In this document: in pieces, positions 1,482 through 22,163 of the stretch
How the letters are laid out: every line of letters starts with the position of its first letter
How positions within the stretch are numbered: position 1 is the first letter of the stretch
Source of the DNA: a virus
DNA: 24,625 nucleotides
IMG/VR virus record: IMGVR_UViG_3300035670_005553
Span: 1-24,625 of that record
Reading direction: 5' to 3' (one strand)
Notes under the pieces: model-generated
What the model saw: only the letters and a program-made list of their open reading frames with translations
Told to the model about the DNA's origin: nothing
Database searches by the model: none
Translations under genes and position numbers: made by a program

Positions 1482-5076
<3,595 letters not shown>

Positions 5077-5080
<4 letters not shown>

Positions 5081-5277
5081 GAATAGAAATTGATGATTTG
5101 AATTGCATAAGAATTTATCATGACGAGAGCGATGTCCCTTTCTTAGAACAACCTTATTGGCCCGACCAGACCCCTTGGGTATCTAGAGAACAAGCACAAG
5201 TTTGGGCTGAACAATATGTTGCTCATTTGCTTAATTCAGAAGAAAATGACCCGCCATCGTTTACAGTAGTGAAATGA
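5077..5277 (+). CDS. Small phage protein of unknown function (66 aa)
   Basis: The ATG at 5077 overlaps the upstream TGA as ATGA, and its own stop overlaps the next ATG the same way, which decides the start over a GTG at 5062. The product is acidic, with the segment VPFLEQPYWPDQTPWVSREQAQVWAEQYVAHLL. A Trp/Pro-rich turn followed by an amphipathic helix of this kind recurs in short phage proteins encoded near fibre genes. There is no signal peptide or membrane segment. A fibre-assembly or chaperone role is possible but only suggested by the neighbours. Confidence 0.8.
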
Positions 5278-6317
5278 AAGTCGCTGTTTACTCAATAGCT
5301 AAAAACGAAGAACAATTTGTAAAACGCTGGGCGGAATCCGCAAAGGAAGCCGACCTAATACTTCTTGCCGATACTGGCTCTACAGATAACACAGTCAAGA
5401 TAGCCAAGCAACTTGGGGTGCGAGTAGAAACAATAGAGGTCAAGCCATGGCGCTTTGATGTAGCCCGCAATCTCTCTTTGGACTTTATCCCGCAGGATTA
5501 TGACTTGTGCATTGCGCTTGACCTTGACGAAGTGTTACAACCCGGTTGGCGACAGGCTCTAGAAAAGACCAGCCGTAAATCTACAAGAATTCGGTACGAA
5601 TATATCTGGTCGTGGAATGACGATGGCAGTCCGGGGGTAACTTATGGCGGGGATAAAATACACAAGCGAAAAGGCTATTTCTGGAGGCATCCAGTACATG
5701 AGGTTTTGACCTCGAAGATGCCAGAGGTGCAGGAGTGGGTGGACTTGCAGATTCATCACTATCCAGACAGTTCAAAGCCTCGCAGCCAGTACCTCCCCTT
5801 GCTAAAAGTGGCTGTAGAGGAGGACCCAGAAGATGACAGGAACGCTTACTACTATGCACGGGAACTGTTCTTCTACGGGGATTATGCAGAATCAATAATT
5901 CAGTTCAAAAGACATTTAGGGTTACCTAAAGCATTATGGGCTCCCGAGCGAGCTGCTTCAATGCGGTACTTAGCCAAGATGGAAAAAGAAAACACAGAAT
6001 CTTGGTTGCTTAAAGCTTGTGCGGAAACTCCGCATCGCAGAGAACCTTGGGTTGAGCTAGCTGAGTATTACTACAGCAAACAAGACTGGGTAGCAACGCT
6101 AAACGCCGCAGAGCGAGCCCTGTCAATAACAGAGAAGCCTTTAGAGTACCTTTGCGAGCCTAGAGCTTGGGGCTCATTGCCTCACGATATTGCCAGTATC
6201 GCAGCTTGGTATGTCGGTACAATTAATAGAGCGGCAGCTCACGCTAAGAAGGCTTTGGAGCATGAGCCAACTAATGAGAGAATTAAAGGTAACTACGAAA
6301 TGATGAGGATTGCGTAA
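5274..6317 (+). CDS. Family 2 (GT-A) glycosyltransferase with C-terminal helical repeat region
   Basis: The 347-aa protein begins with a classical GT2 Rossmann-like segment: MKVAVYSIAKNEE, then ADTGSTDNTV (32-41), and the metal-binding DXD as ALDLDE (Asp83 and Asp85). After about residue 180 it becomes alpha-helical with TPR-like spacing (AYYYARELFFYGDYAESI, WVELAEYYYSKQDWVATLNAAERAL). This architecture is common in phage and bacterial GT2 proteins. It would transfer a sugar from a nucleotide donor to a protein or glycan; the acceptor is unknown. It sits directly after the fibre genes with ATGA overlap and before the protease, so a virion protein made in the same operon is a reasonable acceptor. 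Confidence 0.85.
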   Translation: MKVAVYSIAKNEEQFVKRWAESAKEADLILLADTGSTDNTVKIAKQLGVRVETIEVKPWRFDVARNLSLDFIPQDYDLCIALDLDEVLQPGWRQALEKTSRKSTRIRYEYIWSWNDDGSPGVTYGGDKIHKRKGYFWRHPVHEVLTSKMPEVQEWVDLQIHHYPDSSKPRSQYLPLLKVAVEEDPEDDRNAYYYARELFFYGDYAESIIQFKRHLGLPKALWAPERAASMRYLAKMEKENTESWLLKACAETPHRREPWVELAEYYYSKQDWVATLNAAERALSITEKPLEYLCEPRAWGSLPHDIASIAAWYVGTINRAAAHAKKALEHEPTNERIKGNYEMMRIA

Positions 6318-7901: not shown

Positions 7902-9068
7902 ATGTCTGACTCATTTGTGAAGTCACAGCAAGAGGTCCGTGCTAACCTTACCGAGCAGATTCGCGATGTTATCGAATCCGCCGAGAAGGAAGGCCGTGGA
8001 CTCGATGCGGCTGAGCTAGAGAAGATTGACCGAATCGAAGCCGACATCCGTCGCGCTGACGAGGCAATCTCTGTTGCTAAGCGAAACGAGGAGCGCAAGC
8101 TCGAGGCTTCTGTAGCCGCCAAGGGATTCATTCCTTCGGTTGAGGTTATGGATGACTCAGCTACCCTGCGTTCCATTGCAAGAGGCGAAATCCGCGAATA
8201 CAGCTTCGCGCCTGAACAGCGTACTCTTGTAAACTCCGACAACACCGTTCCCAAGTCGTTCTACGACGAGGTATTCGCTGTTGCTCGTCTGGTTGGCCCG
8301 ATGCTGGATGTATCCCAGATTATCAACACCACCTCTGGTGAGTCGCTGACCGTACCTACCCTGACTCAGTACAGCACGGCAACTCTGGCGACTGCTACTG
8401 CAACGATTGGTGTCTCGGACCCTATCTTCAGCAGCATCACCCTGAACGCCTACAAGTACGCTCACTTGCTGCAAGCAAGCAACGAGCTGGTAGCCGATGC
8501 AGGCTTCCCGCTGGCTTCGTTCCTTGCTGAGCAGGCTGGAAACGCCCTTGGCTTTGCTGTGAACGCAGCTCTGACCACTGGCGATGGCTCGGACAAGCCA
8601 AATGGTGTTGTCACTGCCGCTGGCTCGGGTATCACTGGTGCAACTTCGGCAACTGGAACCTTCACTGCCGATGACCTCATCAACCTTCAGTACACCCTTG
8701 ATGGCGCTGCTCGTCGTCTGCCCGGTGTTGCTTACATGGCAAACACCAGCACCCTTGGCAAGATGCGTACCCTCAAGAATGGTGATGACACCTACCTGTA
8801 CGCTGTGAATGTCGGCGCTCCCGACACCTTCGCTGGCTTCCCAGTTCTGGAGAACCCAGCAATGGCCTCGGTCGGAACTGGCAACAAGTCGGTTCTGTTC
8901 GGTCACATGCCTTCGTACAAGGTGCGAATCGCTGGCGGCGTAAACATTGCCTCCAGCACCGACTACGCGTTCAATCAGGATGTCACCACTTGGCGCGTAC
9001 TGCTCCGAGTTGATGGCGACCTGACCCACGCTGGTCACATCAAGTACTTCATCGGTGGCGCAAGCTAA
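7902..9068 (+). CDS. Major capsid protein, HK97 fold
   Basis: The 388-aa protein starts at the ATG behind AAGGAG. Residues 1 to about 85 are charged and helical (QQEVRANLTEQIRDVIESAEKEGRGLDAAELEKIDRIEADIRRADEAI), matching the delta scaffolding domain that the protease would remove. The rest is a Phage_capsid-type HK97 fold: VNSDNTVPKSFYDEVFAVAR, the GESLTVPTLTQYSTA segment, YAHLLQASNELVADAGFPL with EQAGNALGFAVNAALTTGDGSDKPNGV, and the C-terminal GHMPSYKVRIAGGVNI plus the DVTTWRVLLRVDGDLTHAGHIKYF strands. It builds the icosahedral shell. Its codon use is the most GC-biased of the window, as expected for the most expressed gene. It is flanked by its own structured leader and a strong terminator. 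Confidence 0.95.
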   Translation: MSDSFVKSQQEVRANLTEQIRDVIESAEKEGRGLDAAELEKIDRIEADIRRADEAISVAKRNEERKLEASVAAKGFIPSVEVMDDSATLRSIARGEIREYSFAPEQRTLVNSDNTVPKSFYDEVFAVARLVGPMLDVSQIINTTSGESLTVPTLTQYSTATLATATATIGVSDPIFSSITLNAYKYAHLLQASNELVADAGFPLASFLAEQAGNALGFAVNAALTTGDGSDKPNGVVTAAGSGITGATSATGTFTADDLINLQYTLDGAARRLPGVAYMANTSTLGKMRTLKNGDDTYLYAVNVGAPDTFAGFPVLENPAMASVGTGNKSVLFGHMPSYKVRIAGGVNIASSTDYAFNQDVTTWRVLLRVDGDLTHAGHIKYFIGGAS

Positions 9069-9082
9069 CCTTTGAAATAGGT

Positions 9083-9120
9083 CGAAACCCCCTAGAGTGC
9101 AGGTTCTCTAGGGGGTTTCG
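9083..9120 (+). terminator. Strong intrinsic terminator after the capsid gene
   Basis: CGAAACCCCCTAGAG (9083-9097) pairs perfectly with CTCTAGGGGGTTTCG (9106-9120) around an 8-nt loop, giving a 15-bp stem whose 3' arm contains TTT. The A-run of the 5' arm makes it potentially bidirectional. It insulates capsid transcription from the sugar cassette. Confidence 0.88.
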
Positions 9121-9121
9121 C

Positions 9122-9133
9122 TATACTGTGGGT
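9122..9133 (+). promoter_or_regulatory. Leaderless promoter of the glycosyltransferase cassette
   Basis: TATACT at 9122-9127 is followed by exactly 6 nt and then ATG at 9134, with no Shine-Dalgarno sequence. This TANNNT-N6-ATG geometry places the transcription start on the A of the start codon, as in actinobacterial leaderless mRNAs. No good -35 hexamer is visible because the position falls in the terminator stem. Inferred from sequence only. Confidence 0.65.
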
Positions 9134-10324
9134 ATGACAACCTGCGAACAACTTGATGGCGTTATATCAATCGCCAGTAACACAATCGGTAGCCCAACGG
9201 GTTACGGAATGCAAGGAGAGCTGCTTACAAAGGAGCTTATCCGCCACGGGCTCAAGGTAGCCAATCTCAGCAACTATGGCCTTGAGGGCTCAATCACCAC
9301 CCTCAAGGTAGGAAAGCACGAAATTGCTCACTATCCAAGGGGCTACCAGCTCTATAGCGATGATGTCATCGGCTTATGGCACAGCCACTTTGCCAGTCAA
9401 TTCCCAAACAAGAAGTCTGTGGTTTTAGGCCTCTACGATGTTTGGGTCTGGAACAACATGCAGTATGACGGCGACTTTATTGCTTGGGTCCCGCTAGACC
9501 ACATCACCCTACCTCCAGCAGTAGCGCATTTCTTGAAGAAAGACAAGGTGCGCCCTGTAACGATGGCTCCGCATGGTCAGCGCCAGTTGCAAGAAGCAAA
9601 CATTGACTCAACCTACATCCCTCACATGGTCGATACGACCGTAATGAAGCCCACCAAAAAGATATTTGGTCAGGACACTCGGGAATACATGGGACTGAGC
9701 AAGCACGACTATCTAGTGACCATGGTTGCCGCGAATAAAGCAAATGGCGGATTCTTCCACCGTAAAGCCTTTGCTGAGAACCTGCTGGCCTTTAGCTTGT
9801 TTGCAAAGACCCGCCCAAACGCAAAGCTTTACATTCACACCGAGCCATCGGCGGTTTATGGGGGATTCAACCTCCCCGTGCTACTTCAGTCGGTTGGATT
9901 GCAGCCAGAGCAGGTTTTGTTCCCTCATCCAGTTACTTATAGAACGGGATACCCTTCAGAAGCCCTAGCTGCCTTTTACACGGCCTCAGATGTCGTCTTG
10001 AGTGTTTCCTATGGGGAAGGCTTCGGAGTGCCTCAGATGGAGGCTCAGGCCTGCGGTTCTCGCGTAATCACCTCAAATTTTGCTGCCAGCCCTGATTTAG
10101 CGGGTCCTGACTCTTGGTTGGTCGATGGACAGCCGTTCTGGGATGAAAAACAAGCGGCCTTCTTCCAGATTCCGCACATTCCATCAATCGTCAAGGCGCT
10201 AGAGCAGGCCTACGAGTCAGAGCGAGGCACAAGCGAGTCCTCAATCGAGTTTGCCAAGCAGTTCAGTGTGCGAAATGTTTTTGACAACATGTGGCTACCC
10301 TACCTGCGGGACTTCTTCGCATGA
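9134..10324 (+). CDS. Family 4-like (GT-B) glycosyltransferase
   Basis: A 396-aa protein from the leaderless ATG at 9134 (a GTG at 9128 is also in frame). The C-terminal half carries the GT-B donor-site signature: YTASDVVLSVSYGEGFGVPQ then MEAQACGSRVI, with Glu295 and Glu303 in the E-x7-E arrangement of retaining GT4 enzymes. The N-terminal half has a GSPTGYGMQGELLTKELIRHG loop-helix, where acceptor binding usually occurs. It is cytoplasmic, with no membrane segment. The stop overlaps the next ATG (ATGA). Donor and acceptor are unknown; the nucleotide-sugar enzymes further down the operon suggest an aminodeoxy-sugar donor. Confidence 0.88.
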   Translation: MTTCEQLDGVISIASNTIGSPTGYGMQGELLTKELIRHGLKVANLSNYGLEGSITTLKVGKHEIAHYPRGYQLYSDDVIGLWHSHFASQFPNKKSVVLGLYDVWVWNNMQYDGDFIAWVPLDHITLPPAVAHFLKKDKVRPVTMAPHGQRQLQEANIDSTYIPHMVDTTVMKPTKKIFGQDTREYMGLSKHDYLVTMVAANKANGGFFHRKAFAENLLAFSLFAKTRPNAKLYIHTEPSAVYGGFNLPVLLQSVGLQPEQVLFPHPVTYRTGYPSEALAAFYTASDVVLSVSYGEGFGVPQMEAQACGSRVITSNFAASPDLAGPDSWLVDGQPFWDEKQAAFFQIPHIPSIVKALEQAYESERGTSESSIEFAKQFSVRNVFDNMWLPYLRDFFA

Positions 10325-10968
10325 TTCCAGTACTCGGCGTTCCTGTTCTAAAGAATCACGAGCGGTTACAGCGAGCACTAGACCGCATTGACTATCCGGT
10401 AGAGCGGCTAGTCATTGTGGACCAGTCGGGCGAGGAAAACTGGCGACCAGAAAAGCCTGCCATGGTTACTAACATGACTGTGCTTAACTTTCCACATGCG
10501 ATGGGGGTAGCCCCGTCTTGGAATATCATTATCAAGGCGACCCCGTTTGCCCCGTACTGGCTATTTATCAACGACGATGTAGTACCGCAAGCGGGGTCGT
10601 TCAAGATTCTTGCTGAGGCAGCTCGCACAGATGCCATAGTTATCCCGACAGTCGCTCGGTTCTCTTTCTTTACTATTGGCGAAGAAATCATCAGAGATGT
10701 CGGAATGTTTGATGAGCGTTTCTATCCGATGTATTACGAGGACTCGGAGTACCTAAATCGCATGGCAGCCTTCCAGCGCCCCGTCATAGAGATTCAGTGC
10801 CCAGTACACCACGACACATCAAGCACAATCCACGCTGACGGTTATGCACCAAAAAACAACATAACTTTCCCCAGATTGCACGAATACTACATGTCAAAGA
10901 TTTCGCGCAAGGACTATAGTGAAGGTGGTTGGAGCCTCAAGGTGAGGCGAGACAATAGCTGGGACTAA
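10321..10968 (+). CDS. Family 2 (GT-A) glycosyltransferase, short form
   Basis: ATG at 10321 overlaps the upstream TGA as ATGA; an in-frame upstream extension exists but lies inside the previous gene. The 215-aa product shows GT2 features: MIPVLGVPVLKNHERLQRAL, a VIVDQSG strand (31-37), WLFINDDVV with the metal-binding Asp-Asp at 85-86, and the acidic FYPMYYEDSEYLNRMA where a GT2 catalytic base is expected. It is short for the family, a bare catalytic domain. It probably adds a sugar in the same pathway as the GT4 gene. Stop and next start overlap as TAATG. Confidence 0.85.
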   Translation: MIPVLGVPVLKNHERLQRALDRIDYPVERLVIVDQSGEENWRPEKPAMVTNMTVLNFPHAMGVAPSWNIIIKATPFAPYWLFINDDVVPQAGSFKILAEAARTDAIVIPTVARFSFFTIGEEIIRDVGMFDERFYPMYYEDSEYLNRMAAFQRPVIEIQCPVHHDTSSTIHADGYAPKNNITFPRLHEYYMSKISRKDYSEGGWSLKVRRDNSWD

Positions 10969-11771
10969 TGAAAATATTGATTTTGGGCTCGACTGGGATG
11001 CTTGGGCACAAAGTAAAAGAAGCACTTGCTGACTTAGACCCTATCTGCCCGACTCGAAATGAGTTCAACGCACTAGCGCCCAATCTTTCAAAGTATGAAT
11101 TAAAGAGGGGGGATTATGTCATCAACTGCATCGGCGCAATCCCGCAAAAGGTCACAAATCACATAGAAATGGTTGAAGTTAATTCAATTTTTCCGCGCTG
11201 GCTTGCAGAGAACACTGAAGCAAAAATCATTCACATCACGACAGATTGCGTTTTTAACGGCAAGGTCGGATATTACGCAGAGACAAGCCCACACACGGCA
11301 TCGGATATTTACGGCAAAAGCAAATCGCTTGGCGAGGTTACTGCTAAGAATGTGATGAATCTGCGTTGCAGCATTATTGGAGATGACCCTCGTTCTAAAG
11401 CCTCTTTATACGAGTGGGTTCGCAATCAGCCAGAGGGCGCAATCATAAGCGGATATCTTGACCACACTTGGAACGGGGTAACAACGCTTGCTCTATCAAG
11501 GATTATTGGTGGCATTATTCGGTTCAATCGGTTTATGGCTGGAGTCACGCACATTGTCCCTATCGGGCAGATGAGCAAGAACCGGCTAATAAAACTAATT
11601 ATTGAGCACATAAATCGTCAGGACATAAGCGTACAGCCAAGAATTACAGGAGAACGAGTCAATCGAACATTAATGACTCGATTCCCAGAAACGAATAAAG
11701 ATTTGTGGAAAGTTGCTGGGTATGACAGTATTCCTAGCATAGAGAAACTCTTGGGAGAGATGCATGACTAA
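10968..11771 (+). CDS. RmlD-like sugar-nucleotide 4-keto reductase (SDR)
   Basis: The 267-aa protein has an N-terminal Rossmann fold with GSTGMLG (7-13), an INCIGAIPQK segment, ITTDCVFNG with Thr91-Thr92-Asp93, and the catalytic YGKSK (Tyr115, Lys119). This is the RmlD_sub_bind family, which reduces 4-keto-6-deoxy-sugar nucleotides with NAD(P)H. The pairing with a 4,6-dehydratase of the UDP-GlcNAc type in the next gene resembles the WbvB/WbvR pair that makes UDP-L-RhaNAc in Vibrio O-antigen, more than the dTDP-rhamnose route, because no rmlA, B or C is present. Substrate assignment is inference. The gene is AT-rich relative to the capsid gene. Confidence 0.82.
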   Translation: MKILILGSTGMLGHKVKEALADLDPICPTRNEFNALAPNLSKYELKRGDYVINCIGAIPQKVTNHIEMVEVNSIFPRWLAENTEAKIIHITTDCVFNGKVGYYAETSPHTASDIYGKSKSLGEVTAKNVMNLRCSIIGDDPRSKASLYEWVRNQPEGAIISGYLDHTWNGVTTLALSRIIGGIIRFNRFMAGVTHIVPIGQMSKNRLIKLIIEHINRQDISVQPRITGERVNRTLMTRFPETNKDLWKVAGYDSIPSIEKLLGEMHD

Positions 11772-12741
11772 ATACCTGATTACTGGTGGCACTGGCTCAT
11801 TCGGTCGCACAATGACTCGGTTTATTCTTGCTAAACCCGGAGCTGAGGTTGTTGTCTTTAGCCGCGACGAAGCCAAGCAAGATGAGATGCGACATGAGTT
11901 TAATAATCAGCGCCTCTCGTTTATAGTGGGCGATACAAGGGACTACAGGGCTATCTACAAGGCGCTGAAGGGCGTTGATAGGGTCTTTCATGCGGCAGCG
12001 CTAAAGCAAGTACCTAGCTGCGAGTTCAATCCTATGGAGGCCGTCAAGACAAACATAGAGGGCTCTGCCAATGTACTTGAAGCCGCGATTGAGCAGGAGG
12101 TAAATTCGGTCGTGGTTCTCAGTACTGACAAGGCGGTCTATCCGGTCAATGCTATGGGAATCTCAAAGGCAATGATGGAAAAGGTTGCTTTGTCTTATGC
12201 CCGCCAGCAACAGGACACGCGCATTATGGTAACGCGATACGGCAATGTGATGTATTCGCGGGGCTCTGTAATCCCTTTGTTTATTAATCAGATTCGGTCT
12301 GGCAACCTAACAATTACTGACCCAAACATGACTCGGTTCTTAATGAGTCTTGACGATTCTGTTGATTTAGTACAACGGGCATGGGAACTTGGTAATAATG
12401 GAGACTTGTTTGTCCGAAAAGCTCCAGCGGCGACTATTGGCACGATTGCGGAAGCGGTACAGGAAATCTTCGGGAAGGCCGAGTCTGTATTTACGATTGG
12501 CGCTCGCCATGGAGAAAAGTTACATGAAAGCTTGCTCTCCGCAGAGGAGAGGGCGACAGCCCAAGAGGTTGTGCAGTATTACAGGGTTCCGCTTGACCAA
12601 AGAAACCTGAACTATATAACAAGCAAGCCCATGATTCTTGGTGAGGCTTACACAAGCGAGAACACAAATCGTCTTGATGTCGAGGCAACGAAAGAACTAA
12701 TCTTGAGACTCCCCGAGGTGCAAAAAGCACTGTCAAGGTAA
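11764..12741 (+). CDS. UDP-GlcNAc 4,6-dehydratase (5-inverting type), CapE/WbjB/FnlA-like
   Basis: The 325-aa protein is an extended SDR with GGTGSFG (8-14), FHAAALKQVPSCEFNPMEAV, STDKAVYPVNAMGISKA (Ser120-Asp122-Lys123; Met131 and Lys135, with the usual Tyr of YxxxK replaced by Met as in the FlaA1/CapE group) and RYGNVMYSRGSVIPLF. The C-terminal part (APAATIGTIAEAVQEIFG, GARHGEKLHESLLS, YYRVPLDQRNLNY, RLDVEATKELIL) is diagnostic of the WbjB/CapE/FnlA branch. These enzymes convert UDP-GlcNAc to a 4-keto-6-deoxy-L-hexosamine nucleotide. It overlaps the reductase by 8 nt. No C2-epimerase gene is visible here, so an L-talo- or L-rhamno-configured product is more likely than UDP-L-FucNAc. Confidence 0.9.
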   Translation: MTKYLITGGTGSFGRTMTRFILAKPGAEVVVFSRDEAKQDEMRHEFNNQRLSFIVGDTRDYRAIYKALKGVDRVFHAAALKQVPSCEFNPMEAVKTNIEGSANVLEAAIEQEVNSVVVLSTDKAVYPVNAMGISKAMMEKVALSYARQQQDTRIMVTRYGNVMYSRGSVIPLFINQIRSGNLTITDPNMTRFLMSLDDSVDLVQRAWELGNNGDLFVRKAPAATIGTIAEAVQEIFGKAESVFTIGARHGEKLHESLLSAEERATAQEVVQYYRVPLDQRNLNYITSKPMILGEAYTSENTNRLDVEATKELILRLPEVQKALSR

Positions 12742-12750
12742 GATTGACTC
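12739..12750 (+). promoter_or_regulatory. Leaderless promoter of the connector/tail operon, overlapping the upstream stop codon
   Basis: TAAGAT at 12739-12744 begins with the TAA stop of the dehydratase gene and is followed by 6 nt (TGACTC) and ATG at 12751. There is no ribosome binding site. Geometry is identical to the box in front of the GT4 gene. It would restart virion-gene transcription after the sugar cassette. No convincing -35 element is visible. Confidence 0.6.
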
Positions 12751-13341
12751 ATGGCAATTAGCAACGGATATACGACTCTTGTAGAGGTCAAAAATATCTT
12801 GCGCCTGACTGACAGCATTGATGATGCCCTCCTAGAGACCTGCATTGAGAGCGCCAGTAGGCAGATTGACACTCACTGCGAGCGCGTTTTTACTTCTAGC
12901 ACTGGCACTCGGGTTTACACGCCCAGAGATTCCTACACCTGCGAGATTGACGACCTAGTGTCTTTGACTTCTTTAGAGAGCTCAACGGATGGCGACAGCT
13001 TTGATGTTACTTGGGGCGTGAACGACTATCAGCTGATGCCCCTAAACGGCTATGTAGGCGGGCTACAGCGCCCTTACGACCTGATTGGGGCCATTGGGGA
13101 CTTGGTGTTCACCACGCTCGGCATAGAGGCTACTGTGCGCGTTACAGGGACATTCGGCTGGAGCGCAGTGCCTACCGATATTCGTCAGGCCTGCAACCTT
13201 ATTGCCATTCGCCAGTACAAGCGCTATGATTCGCCTCTTGGAGTTGCTGGATTCGGGGACCTAGGCGCTATCAGGGTAAGCCGCTTCGACCCTGATGTAG
13301 AAACCCTATTAAGCCCTTATCGTAAGCTGCGGTTTGCTTAA
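12751..13341 (+). CDS. Head-tail connector (adaptor) protein
   Basis: 196 aa. The N-terminus LVEVKNILRLTDSIDDALLETCIESASRQIDTHCERVF is the helical signature of phage head-tail adaptor proteins of the gp6/gp15 type that dock beneath the portal. The middle is beta-rich, and the C-terminus (VPTDIRQACNLIAIRQYKRYDSPLGV then RVSRFDPDVETLLSPYRKLRFA) is characteristic of actinophage connectors. It starts directly at the leaderless promoter and overlaps the next gene by TAATG. Confidence 0.88.
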   Translation: MAISNGYTTLVEVKNILRLTDSIDDALLETCIESASRQIDTHCERVFTSSTGTRVYTPRDSYTCEIDDLVSLTSLESSTDGDSFDVTWGVNDYQLMPLNGYVGGLQRPYDLIGAIGDLVFTTLGIEATVRVTGTFGWSAVPTDIRQACNLIAIRQYKRYDSPLGVAGFGDLGAIRVSRFDPDVETLLSPYRKLRFA

Positions 13342-14176: not shown

Positions 14177-14431
14177 ATGAGAATCAACCTGCAACTCACT
14201 TTTGCCGACAAAACTGAAAAAGAAATTACTGCCAACGCAGCGGATTTGGTTGCCTTTGAGGACAAATTCAACCTATCCATCGCTGCCCTTGGTGGCGGAG
14301 AACCTCGCCTGAGCCACTTGCTTTACATTGCATGGCACAGCGAGACTCGCACCAAGGGAACCAACCTCTCCTTCGAGGAATGGTGCAGCACTGTAGAGGC
14401 AGTGGGTGAATCACCTAACGACCCAAAATAA
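14177..14431 (+). CDS. Tail assembly chaperone, short form (lambda gpG equivalent)
   Basis: ATG at 14177 lies behind AAGGAAAA and gives an 84-aa protein: MRINLQLTFADKTEKEITANAADLVAFEDKFNLSIAAL, then HLLYIAWHSETRTKGTNLSFEEWCSTVEAVGE. Its position between tail tube and tape measure, size, and the slippery heptamer at its last codons identify it as the G-type chaperone that keeps the tape measure soluble and recruits tube subunits. The upstream in-frame extension to 14129 lies inside the tail tube gene and is rejected. It ends CCA AAA TAA. Confidence 0.88.
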   Translation: MRINLQLTFADKTEKEITANAADLVAFEDKFNLSIAALGGGEPRLSHLLYIAWHSETRTKGTNLSFEEWCSTVEAVGESPNDPK

Positions 14432-21836: not shown

Positions 21837-21905
21837 GGTTGTGGTTGCTCCCTTCCTATCGGTTAGTGCCCCGCAGGTTCCCTCTCTTCATCCTGCGGGG
21901 CTTTA
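21837..21905 (+). ncRNA. Candidate short RNA between promoter and terminator
   Basis: A transcript initiated 6-7 nt after CATAAT (21825-21830) would be about 70 nt and consist mainly of the terminator hairpin. The only frame within it (from ATG 21835 or GTG 21841) gives a low-complexity 35-37-aa peptide without a ribosome binding site. Evidence is only the promoter-terminator pair. Confidence 0.3.
21868..21905 (+). terminator. Intrinsic terminator between convergent lysis genes and whiB
   Basis: GCCCCGCAGG (21868-21877) pairs perfectly with CCTGCGGGGC (21892-21901) around a 14-nt loop, followed by TTTA. It serves rightward transcription; on the other strand it lies just past the whiB stop (21903-21905), so it can stop both. 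Confidence 0.82.
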
Positions 21906-22163
21906 CCTTTCTGAGGGAGATGTCCCGCCCCAAATGCCAGACTGCTGATTAGTCGTCACGGCATATTCGTAACAATCATGCTTAATTGGGCAAGTGCTAC
22001 ACAGCGCTTTAGCTGACCTAGTAGCTGTTAGCTTTAATTCAGGGTCCACAATATCTTCGGGAAAAAACAAAGTTGGCGCACTTTCACAGGGGACTCCACC
22101 TGCTTTTTTTATTAATCTAAGCAATTTGTAATAACCTTGCTCAAAATGTCCGGGCTGTGCCAT
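21903..22163 (-). CDS. WhiB-family iron-sulfur transcription factor
   Basis: The 86-aa minus-strand product has the WhiB cysteine set C26, C55-x2-C58-x5-C64 (CESAP ... ALCSTCPIKHDC) and the turn GIWGGTSPSER, which in the family contacts the sigma-A C-terminal region beside a [4Fe-4S] cluster. WhiB proteins are essentially confined to actinobacteria and their phages, so this fixes the host phylum. Phage WhiB proteins such as TM4 WhiBTM4 can interfere with host WhiB2 and cell division or superinfection. It is the only leftward gene here, divergent from the recombinase with overlapping promoters, suggesting a regulatory switch role. Confidence 0.95.
   Translation of the reverse strand: MAQPGHFEQGYYKLLRLIKKAGGVPCESAPTLFFPEDIVDPELKLTATRSAKALCSTCPIKHDCYEYAVTTNQQSGIWGGTSPSER

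Follow-up and report, generated by a model that had tools for sequence, protein, structure and literature searches.

We identified a variable sugar locus within the head gene cluster of a large tailed phage lineage. It was analyzed in IMGVR_UViG_3300035670_005553, a 24,625-base IMG/VR virus record classed as linear (the window, taken at its full length), in which four genes separate the gene for the HK97-type major capsid protein (MCP) from that for the head-tail connector: two glycosyltransferases (GT1 and GT2), an RmlD-like reductase and a FnlA-like dehydratase, the latter two being short-chain dehydrogenases/reductases (SDRs). All evidence is computational and comes from sequence. On balance, it favors a variable glycan locus that serves virion glycosylation with a phage-made UDP-2-acetamido-2,6-dideoxy-L-hexose, its expression being tied to morphogenesis. 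In this lineage a glycosyltransferase is practically part of the head operon, with the sugar genes behind it swapped as in a serotype locus. In addition, the capsid mRNA likeliest ends in a base-pairing regulatory element that links capsid, glycosylation and tail assembly.

Relatives were collected by protein scans with the capsid protein and GT1 and by alignments, which gave more than 200 loci, some overlapping and all selected by similarity; apart from the isolated Pontimonas phage phiPsal1, all come from uncultured contigs, many of them fragmentary. A GT1 homolog came first in 102 of 108 distinct capsid-to-connector intervals (slots), including phiPsal1. The commonest filling was GT1-GT2-cytidylyltransferase (38 slots), the last of these matching glycerol-3-phosphate cytidylyltransferase best, below the strict cut-off; GT1-MptE-like-GT2 (12) and GT1 alone (10) were also found. 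Further fillings contained methyltransferase, GT17-like, TOD1-like or SDR-epimerase genes, and by eye we noted resemblances to a sulfotransferase (L223) and a UDP-sugar dehydrogenase (L206) as well as HNH insertions. The RmlD-FnlA pair was a rare filling, present in the window and in one other locus (L077). Locus L170 (6840-7634) had an RmlD-like reductase in the slot without a FnlA-like dehydratase; this reductase may depend on a 4-keto sugar of the host. Six slots had no GT1 (five were empty, one held GT2 only), and none was found elsewhere in these records, which are fragments. Judged by gene content, GT1 is a near-core gene of the lineage, and the genes behind it form an exchangeable, serotype-like module.

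A sequence-only reading of the window had described four coupled genes between capsid and connector, inside the virion operon. The open reading frame (ORF) calls, with overlaps of 1-8 nt (ATGA for GT1/GT2, TAATG for GT2/RmlD-like, 8 nt for RmlD-like/FnlA-like), the family matches (Table 1) and the flanking genes, capsid upstream and a gp6-type connector downstream, bear this out. It had also proposed that the four genes were an insertion exchanged as one unit, and had named synteny in relatives as one of its checks. Synteny does not support this proposal: GT1 behaves as a gene of the lineage, and only the part downstream of it is swapped.

A similar arrangement was also found outside the lineage. 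Between its MCP and adaptor genes, Microcystis phage Mae-JY09 (L143, 6959-10228) encoded a member of the GT1 family (hidden Markov model, HMM, 4e-89) together with an SDR; since its MCP was not detected by the lineage's MCP HMM, the same GT1 position recurs on another capsid background. In cyanophage S-CBS4 (L145, 5845-8208), a glycosyltransferase, GT2 and a methyltransferase lay between portal and protease. Around GT1, a number of loci (L040, L041, L047-L059, L217, L038, L068) carried additional small genes, of which several lay on the minus strand, or endonucleases of HNH-like type, which suggests that its surroundings are an insertion hotspot.

Both borders of the slot are marked by promoters. 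TATACT and TAAGAT each lie exactly 6 nt before an ATG, and in leaderless actinobacterial genes TANNNT precedes the start codon by ~12 nt (PMC3160421, PMC3898074). ATG 9134 is a more likely start of GT1 than the GTG at 9128 of the mechanical ORF, because TATACT then has the leaderless spacing. Among relatives, 114 of 139 distinct GT1 starts showed the TANNNT-N6-start pattern, compared with 0/133 for MCP, 0/111 for protease, 1/105 for tube, 0/62 for cytidylyltransferase and 9/111 for GT2, so this spacing is not due to chance. By the published pattern both are leaderless actinobacterial promoters, with a predicted transcription start, and the promoter-like boxes of the sequence-only reading were correctly placed. 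Generic sigma-70 and terminator scans of the window gave nothing above shuffled expectation; the sigma-70 scan is misleading here because these promoters have no -35 element. In 43 loci the connector -10 box overlapped the stop codon of the preceding gene, with an offset of 0 or +5; in the window, the FnlA-like gene terminates with the TAA of TAAGAT. This overlap is a precise module junction. The left border (hairpin and leaderless promoter) and the right border (connector promoter) were constant whatever the slot contained.

The enzymes of the window were then assigned by family, motif and fold. GT1 matched PF00534 with 33.8 bits (cut-off 26.4) and had an intact EX7E motif (E295/E303 invariant), and the best PDB fold matches of its model were chlorovirus B736L and MshA; family, motif and modeled fold class it as a GT4-type retaining glycosyltransferase with a predicted GT-B fold. 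GT2 had no Pfam match, and its family came from phrog_29879 and its GT-A fold from the model. The FnlA-like protein aligned over residues 4-323 with solved members of its family (4j2o, 8e-111; CapE 3vvb, 5e-102). Its active site (T121, D122, K123, M131) has Met in place of the catalytic Tyr and retains the Asp-Lys pair, the reference being D125/K126/M134 of Ab-WbjB (PMC5774825). TIGR04130, the NCBIfam FnlA equivalog, was its best family with 414 bits, below the 730-bit cut-off, and we therefore call it FnlA-like rather than FnlA. The RmlD-like reductase has 267 aa and matched only RmlD_sub_bind/Epimerase, without NF047837, whereas WbjC/CapF (NF047837) has ~370 aa and a second, cupin domain; its score against TIGR01214 was 56.6 bits (cut-off 224). 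By curated cut-offs it is a relative of RmlD, neither RmlD itself nor WbjC/CapF.

Neither a C3-epimerase (cupin) domain of the WbjC/CapF type nor a recognizable 2-epimerase was present among the ORFs scanned, and for this reason UDP-L-FucNAc, the standard end product, is not predicted. From pathway knowledge, the SDR pair is predicted to yield a UDP-2-acetamido-2,6-dideoxy-L-hexose, its type being L-RhaNAc/L-PneNAc rather than L-FucNAc. WbvB/WbvR-type pathways are the model behind this product. The cassette had been called self-contained, which is only partly right: it needs host UDP-GlcNAc, and the scanned ORFs include neither epimerase. A donor of the SDR pair was not identified: bacterial relatives of the RmlD-like protein were only ~30% identical and viral ones beyond the lineage at most 43%. 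A FnlA homolog 53% identical to that of the window occurred in OR849864.1 / OR844989.1, labeled Staphylococcus phage, of which the labels or assemblies may be doubtful.

During the promoter check, we observed complementarity between the opening codons of GT1 and the capsid hairpin loop, UGCAGGUU. A comparison of 110 nonredundant relatives showed that loop and GT1 start covary, with pairs such as GUAGGUU/AACCUAC, GCAGGUU/AACCUGC, GUAGGGU/ACCCUAC, AGACUAGGUU/AACCUAGUCU and UGGUUGAU/AUCAACCA. The motif at the GT1 start occurred in two reading frames (ATG GCA AAC CTA and ATG ACA ACC TAC) and is therefore not accounted for by protein coding, and the complementarity was kept across insertions of several hundred nucleotides (L040, L047-L059). 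A search for other complements revealed a second, more regular target, this one at the start of the gene that follows the tail tube. This target covaried with the loop as well (L070, UGGAGGUU/AACCUCCA; L033, UGGUUGGU/ACCAACCA), and in some loci it lay in the leader. Loci without GT1 mostly retained the loop, which first seemed to contradict the pairing and is explained by the remaining tail target.

When loop-target pairings were shuffled among loci (4000 permutations), the observed match was never reached for GT1 starts (z 13.1, 0/4000, 55% strong matches) or for starts of the gene after the tube (z 12.9, 0/4000, 88% strong). At 13 control sites, comprising starts and ends of other genes, the same test gave z values from -1.4 to 1.6 and no more than 3% strong matches. 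With one representative per loop type, a partial guard against shared ancestry, the observed sum was reached in 0 of 200 resamples of 500 permutations. Matched pairs formed duplexes 2-3 kcal/mol stronger than unmatched ones. At the level of sequence, these comparisons show conservation and covariation of loop and targets, specificity for two sites among those tested, and location of the element in a hairpin loop. The element had no match in Rfam, and a DNA operator with fixed spacing was ruled out, the loop-target distance varying widely.

We consider it reasonably probable that the capsid mRNA, through its terminator loop, regulates by base pairing at the translation starts of two genes, the virion-associated GT1 and the one that follows the tail tube, such that the amount of capsid message would set their translation; covariation that maintains the pairing in ~10 loop types, even where insertions of hundreds of bases intervene, points in this direction. 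The loop would act as RNA, in trans or in long-range cis, and block initiation at both starts; in the simplest form, translation of GT1 and the tail gene would be repressed in trans while capsid mRNA is abundant. Two observations qualify this proposal. Some unrelated internal sites of the window rank, at equal energy, among its best 12-nt duplexes with the loop, so that conservation, not duplex energy alone, is the evidence; and pairing was absent from one clade (L013, L028, L060), from L206/L218/L288 and from phiPsal1. A clade with GT1 as the only slot gene (L015/L018/L019) paired with the tail target only.

Less probably, the complementary stretches are sites of a DNA-binding regulator, i.e., an asymmetric, stoperator-like motif, since covariation at three sites could also follow from co-evolution of a regulator and its sites. 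Changes at loop G/U positions comprised 11 that were G-U-compatible and 6 transversions, a modest excess with few counts and a possible transition bias, and because this evidence is weak a DNA-binding protein stays a live rival. Such a protein would not readily account for the following: one copy occupies the hairpin loop in every case and is invariably antisense, longer loops have longer matches (L253, L034, L035), and the target is located now in the leader, now in the coding part (L033, L185, L188, L191).

In the proposed virion glycosylation, GT1 would attach the first sugar to a virion protein, most likely the capsid protein, with tail or collagen-like fibre as possible acceptors, GT2 would extend it, and the last genes of the slot would supply or decorate the donor. 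In the window, the FnlA-like enzyme would act on host UDP-GlcNAc to form a 4-keto-6-deoxy-L-sugar, which the RmlD-like enzyme would reduce at C4 to a UDP-2-acetamido-2,6-dideoxy-L-hexose, the donor for GT1 or GT2. This scheme is consistent with the co-location of glycosyltransferase and virion genes in nearly all slots, in Mae-JY09 and in S-CBS4, with intact catalytic motifs, with slot fillings suggestive of sugar synthesis (GT2, cytidylyltransferase, methyltransferases, GT17, TOD1-like, SDRs), with the conserved leaderless promoters and the loop-target covariation, and with the precedents in mycobacteriophages and chloroviruses. Virion glycosylation, already the leading idea of the sequence-only reading, is still the best reading, the acceptor being a predicted one. 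Several points count against it: the folds of GT1 and GT2 are generic and match cell-wall and small-molecule glycosyltransferases too; GT1 is dispensable, being missing from six slots; GT1 distances correlated with MCP distances (Spearman 0.31) no better than with connector distances (0.44), indicating no special co-evolution of GT1 and MCP; and the record is an incomplete contig without an isolate.

Alternatively, the enzymes may remodel the host surface, altering wall glycopolymers of the infected cell for superinfection block or progeny release, and slot variability would follow host wall diversity. The GT2 model also matched the wall teichoic acid transferases RmlT and TarP, the cytidylyltransferase fillings resemble enzymes for teichoic-acid precursors, and the wall of Pontimonas contains unusual sugars, its wall glycosyltransferases including ones acquired horizontally (PMC6106888). 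We regard this as rather unlikely in view of the head-operon position, which holds for 102 of 108 loci and recurs with an unrelated capsid, and because lysogeny, the state in which serotype conversion would be most profitable, was not indicated for phiPsal1 (PMC6106888). GT1 also shares a control element with the capsid gene and a tail gene, be it RNA or DNA, which favors virion morphogenesis over a change of the host wall.

A recently inserted, freely mobile four-gene unit could be read from the rarity of the SDR pair and from the GC content of the RmlD-like gene (44%, versus 51-55% in GT1, capsid and connector). It is very improbable and largely refuted by synteny, GT1 being nearly universal in the slot and L170 having RmlD without FnlA; moreover, window and L077 were 81% identical in GT2, and only 47% and 58% in the RmlD-like and FnlA-like proteins, respectively, so these genes have not recently moved jointly. 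Glycosylation of phage DNA against restriction, with GT1 and GT2 placing sugars on modified bases as proposed for glycosyltransferases of freshwater actinophages (PMC10202952), is the least probable, given the late head-operon position, the absence of a recognized base-modification gene among the scanned ORFs of the incomplete record, and cytidylyltransferase and methyltransferase fillings that fit glycan building better.

The sole isolated relative, phiPsal1 (MG835450), which infects an aquatic actinobacterium, is no longer available (PMC6106888). Its slot (MCP, group I glycosyltransferase, SAM methyltransferase, GT2, neck) has the same position and flanking genes as that of the window, with homologous GT1 (50%) and GT2 (35%), but contains a minus-strand methyltransferase instead of nucleotide-sugar enzymes, and its capsid loop does not pair with GT1. 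Virion glycosylation by phage glycosyltransferases is also described, in citing accounts, for mycobacteriophages, likewise phages of actinobacteria (Che8 gp110, Corndog gp38, Myrna; Freeman et al. 2023 via PMC12363180, PMC12619734, PMC11256854), where capsid and tail-tube proteins bear the glycans (PMC12363180, PMC12619734). In Maravista, a Che8 relative, the glycosyltransferases are located near the 3' end of the genome, not beside the capsid gene (PMC11256854), and these citing accounts describe neither donor genes nor a variable slot. Chloroviruses make capsid glycans with virus-encoded nucleotide-sugar enzymes and, like the window, carry both these and glycosyltransferases (PMC4691112), including B736L; unlike the window, they are eukaryotic giant viruses that use GDP-sugars and have no single compact slot behind the capsid gene. 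The WbjB-WbjC-WbjD / CapE-CapF-CapG route to UDP-L-FucNAc (PMC5774825) shares with the window a FnlA-like enzyme with the Met-for-Tyr signature beside a predicted 4-keto reductase; the window differs in its short RmlD-type reductase without a C3-epimerase domain and in having no C2-epimerase that we could find.

Phage-encoded and 3'-UTR-derived base-pairing RNAs (PMC12197685; CisR, PMC13250501) pair with translation starts through short antisense stretches, as proposed here; the present element differs in being the terminator loop of the capsid mRNA itself and in having late phage genes as targets. No equivalent of capsid-loop pairing was found in the consulted portions of the literature on phage base-pairing RNAs, including a review (PMC12197685). 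If true, the pairing would represent an unrecognized way in which a virus coordinates capsid, coating and tail assembly through what is probably its most abundant late message. The natural slot variants, in turn, make the role of phage virion glycans outside animals testable by comparison.

Table 1. Features of the slot and of the capsid-loop element, in window coordinates
Feature	Position	Strand	Evidence or remark
HK97-type MCP gene	7902..9068 (ATG)	+	PF05065 4e-52, phrog_10
Terminator-like hairpin of capsid mRNA	9083..9120	+	-30.3 kcal/mol, z -6.8; equivalent hairpin 3' of MCP in relatives
Hairpin loop UGCAGGUU, 8 nt	9098..9105	+	complementary to starts of GT1 and of gene after tail tube
-10 box TATACT, predicted leaderless GT1 promoter	9122..9127	+	TANNNT-N6-start in 114/139 relatives
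GT1, GT-B GT4-type glycosyltransferase, near-core in lineage	9134..10324	+	PF00534, phrog_2170, EX7E, model pLDDT 90
Target site 1 AACCTGCG	9139..9146	+	pairs with capsid loop: 7 Watson-Crick + 1 G-U
GT2, GT-A fold glycosyltransferase	10321..10968	+	phrog_29879 2e-35; model pLDDT 83.5
RmlD-like SDR reductase, predicted 4-keto reductase	10968..11771	+	PF04321 5e-14; YxxxK motif kept
CapE/WbjB/FnlA-like UDP-GlcNAc 4,6-dehydratase/5-epimerase (predicted)	11764..12741	+	PF02719, PF08485; 4j2o 8e-111; Met-for-Tyr signature
-10 box TAAGAT, predicted leaderless connector promoter	12739..12744	+	overlaps FnlA-like stop codon; connector promoter in 111/121 relatives
gp6-type head-tail connector gene, right slot border	12751..13341	+	PF05135, phrog_442
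84-aa gene after tail tube; tail assembly chaperone by position only	14177..14431	+	placed by synteny; no PHROG match
Target site 2 AACCTGCA	14186..14193	+	perfect 8-nt complement of capsid loop

The window is probably a fragment (an incomplete contig) of a phage genome. Its gene order is portal, collagen-like protein, tetratricopeptide repeat (TPR)-linked GT2, prohead protease, HK97 capsid, hairpin, GT1, GT2, RmlD-like, FnlA-like, connector, tail terminator, tube and further tail genes. A scan of genome contigs with the window MCP found no relative that would indicate a host or prophage. A WhiB-like regulator (PF02467) is encoded at 21903-22163 on the minus strand, consistent with an actinobacterial host; on the basis of this gene and the relative phiPsal1, the lineage probably consists of small tailed phages of aquatic Microbacteriaceae. 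Upstream of the protease, the window also encodes a Thr-rich collagen-like protein (1837-4065) and a third glycosyltransferase, the TPR-linked one (5274-6317, phrog_13126), which possibly form a separate fibre-glycosylation pair.

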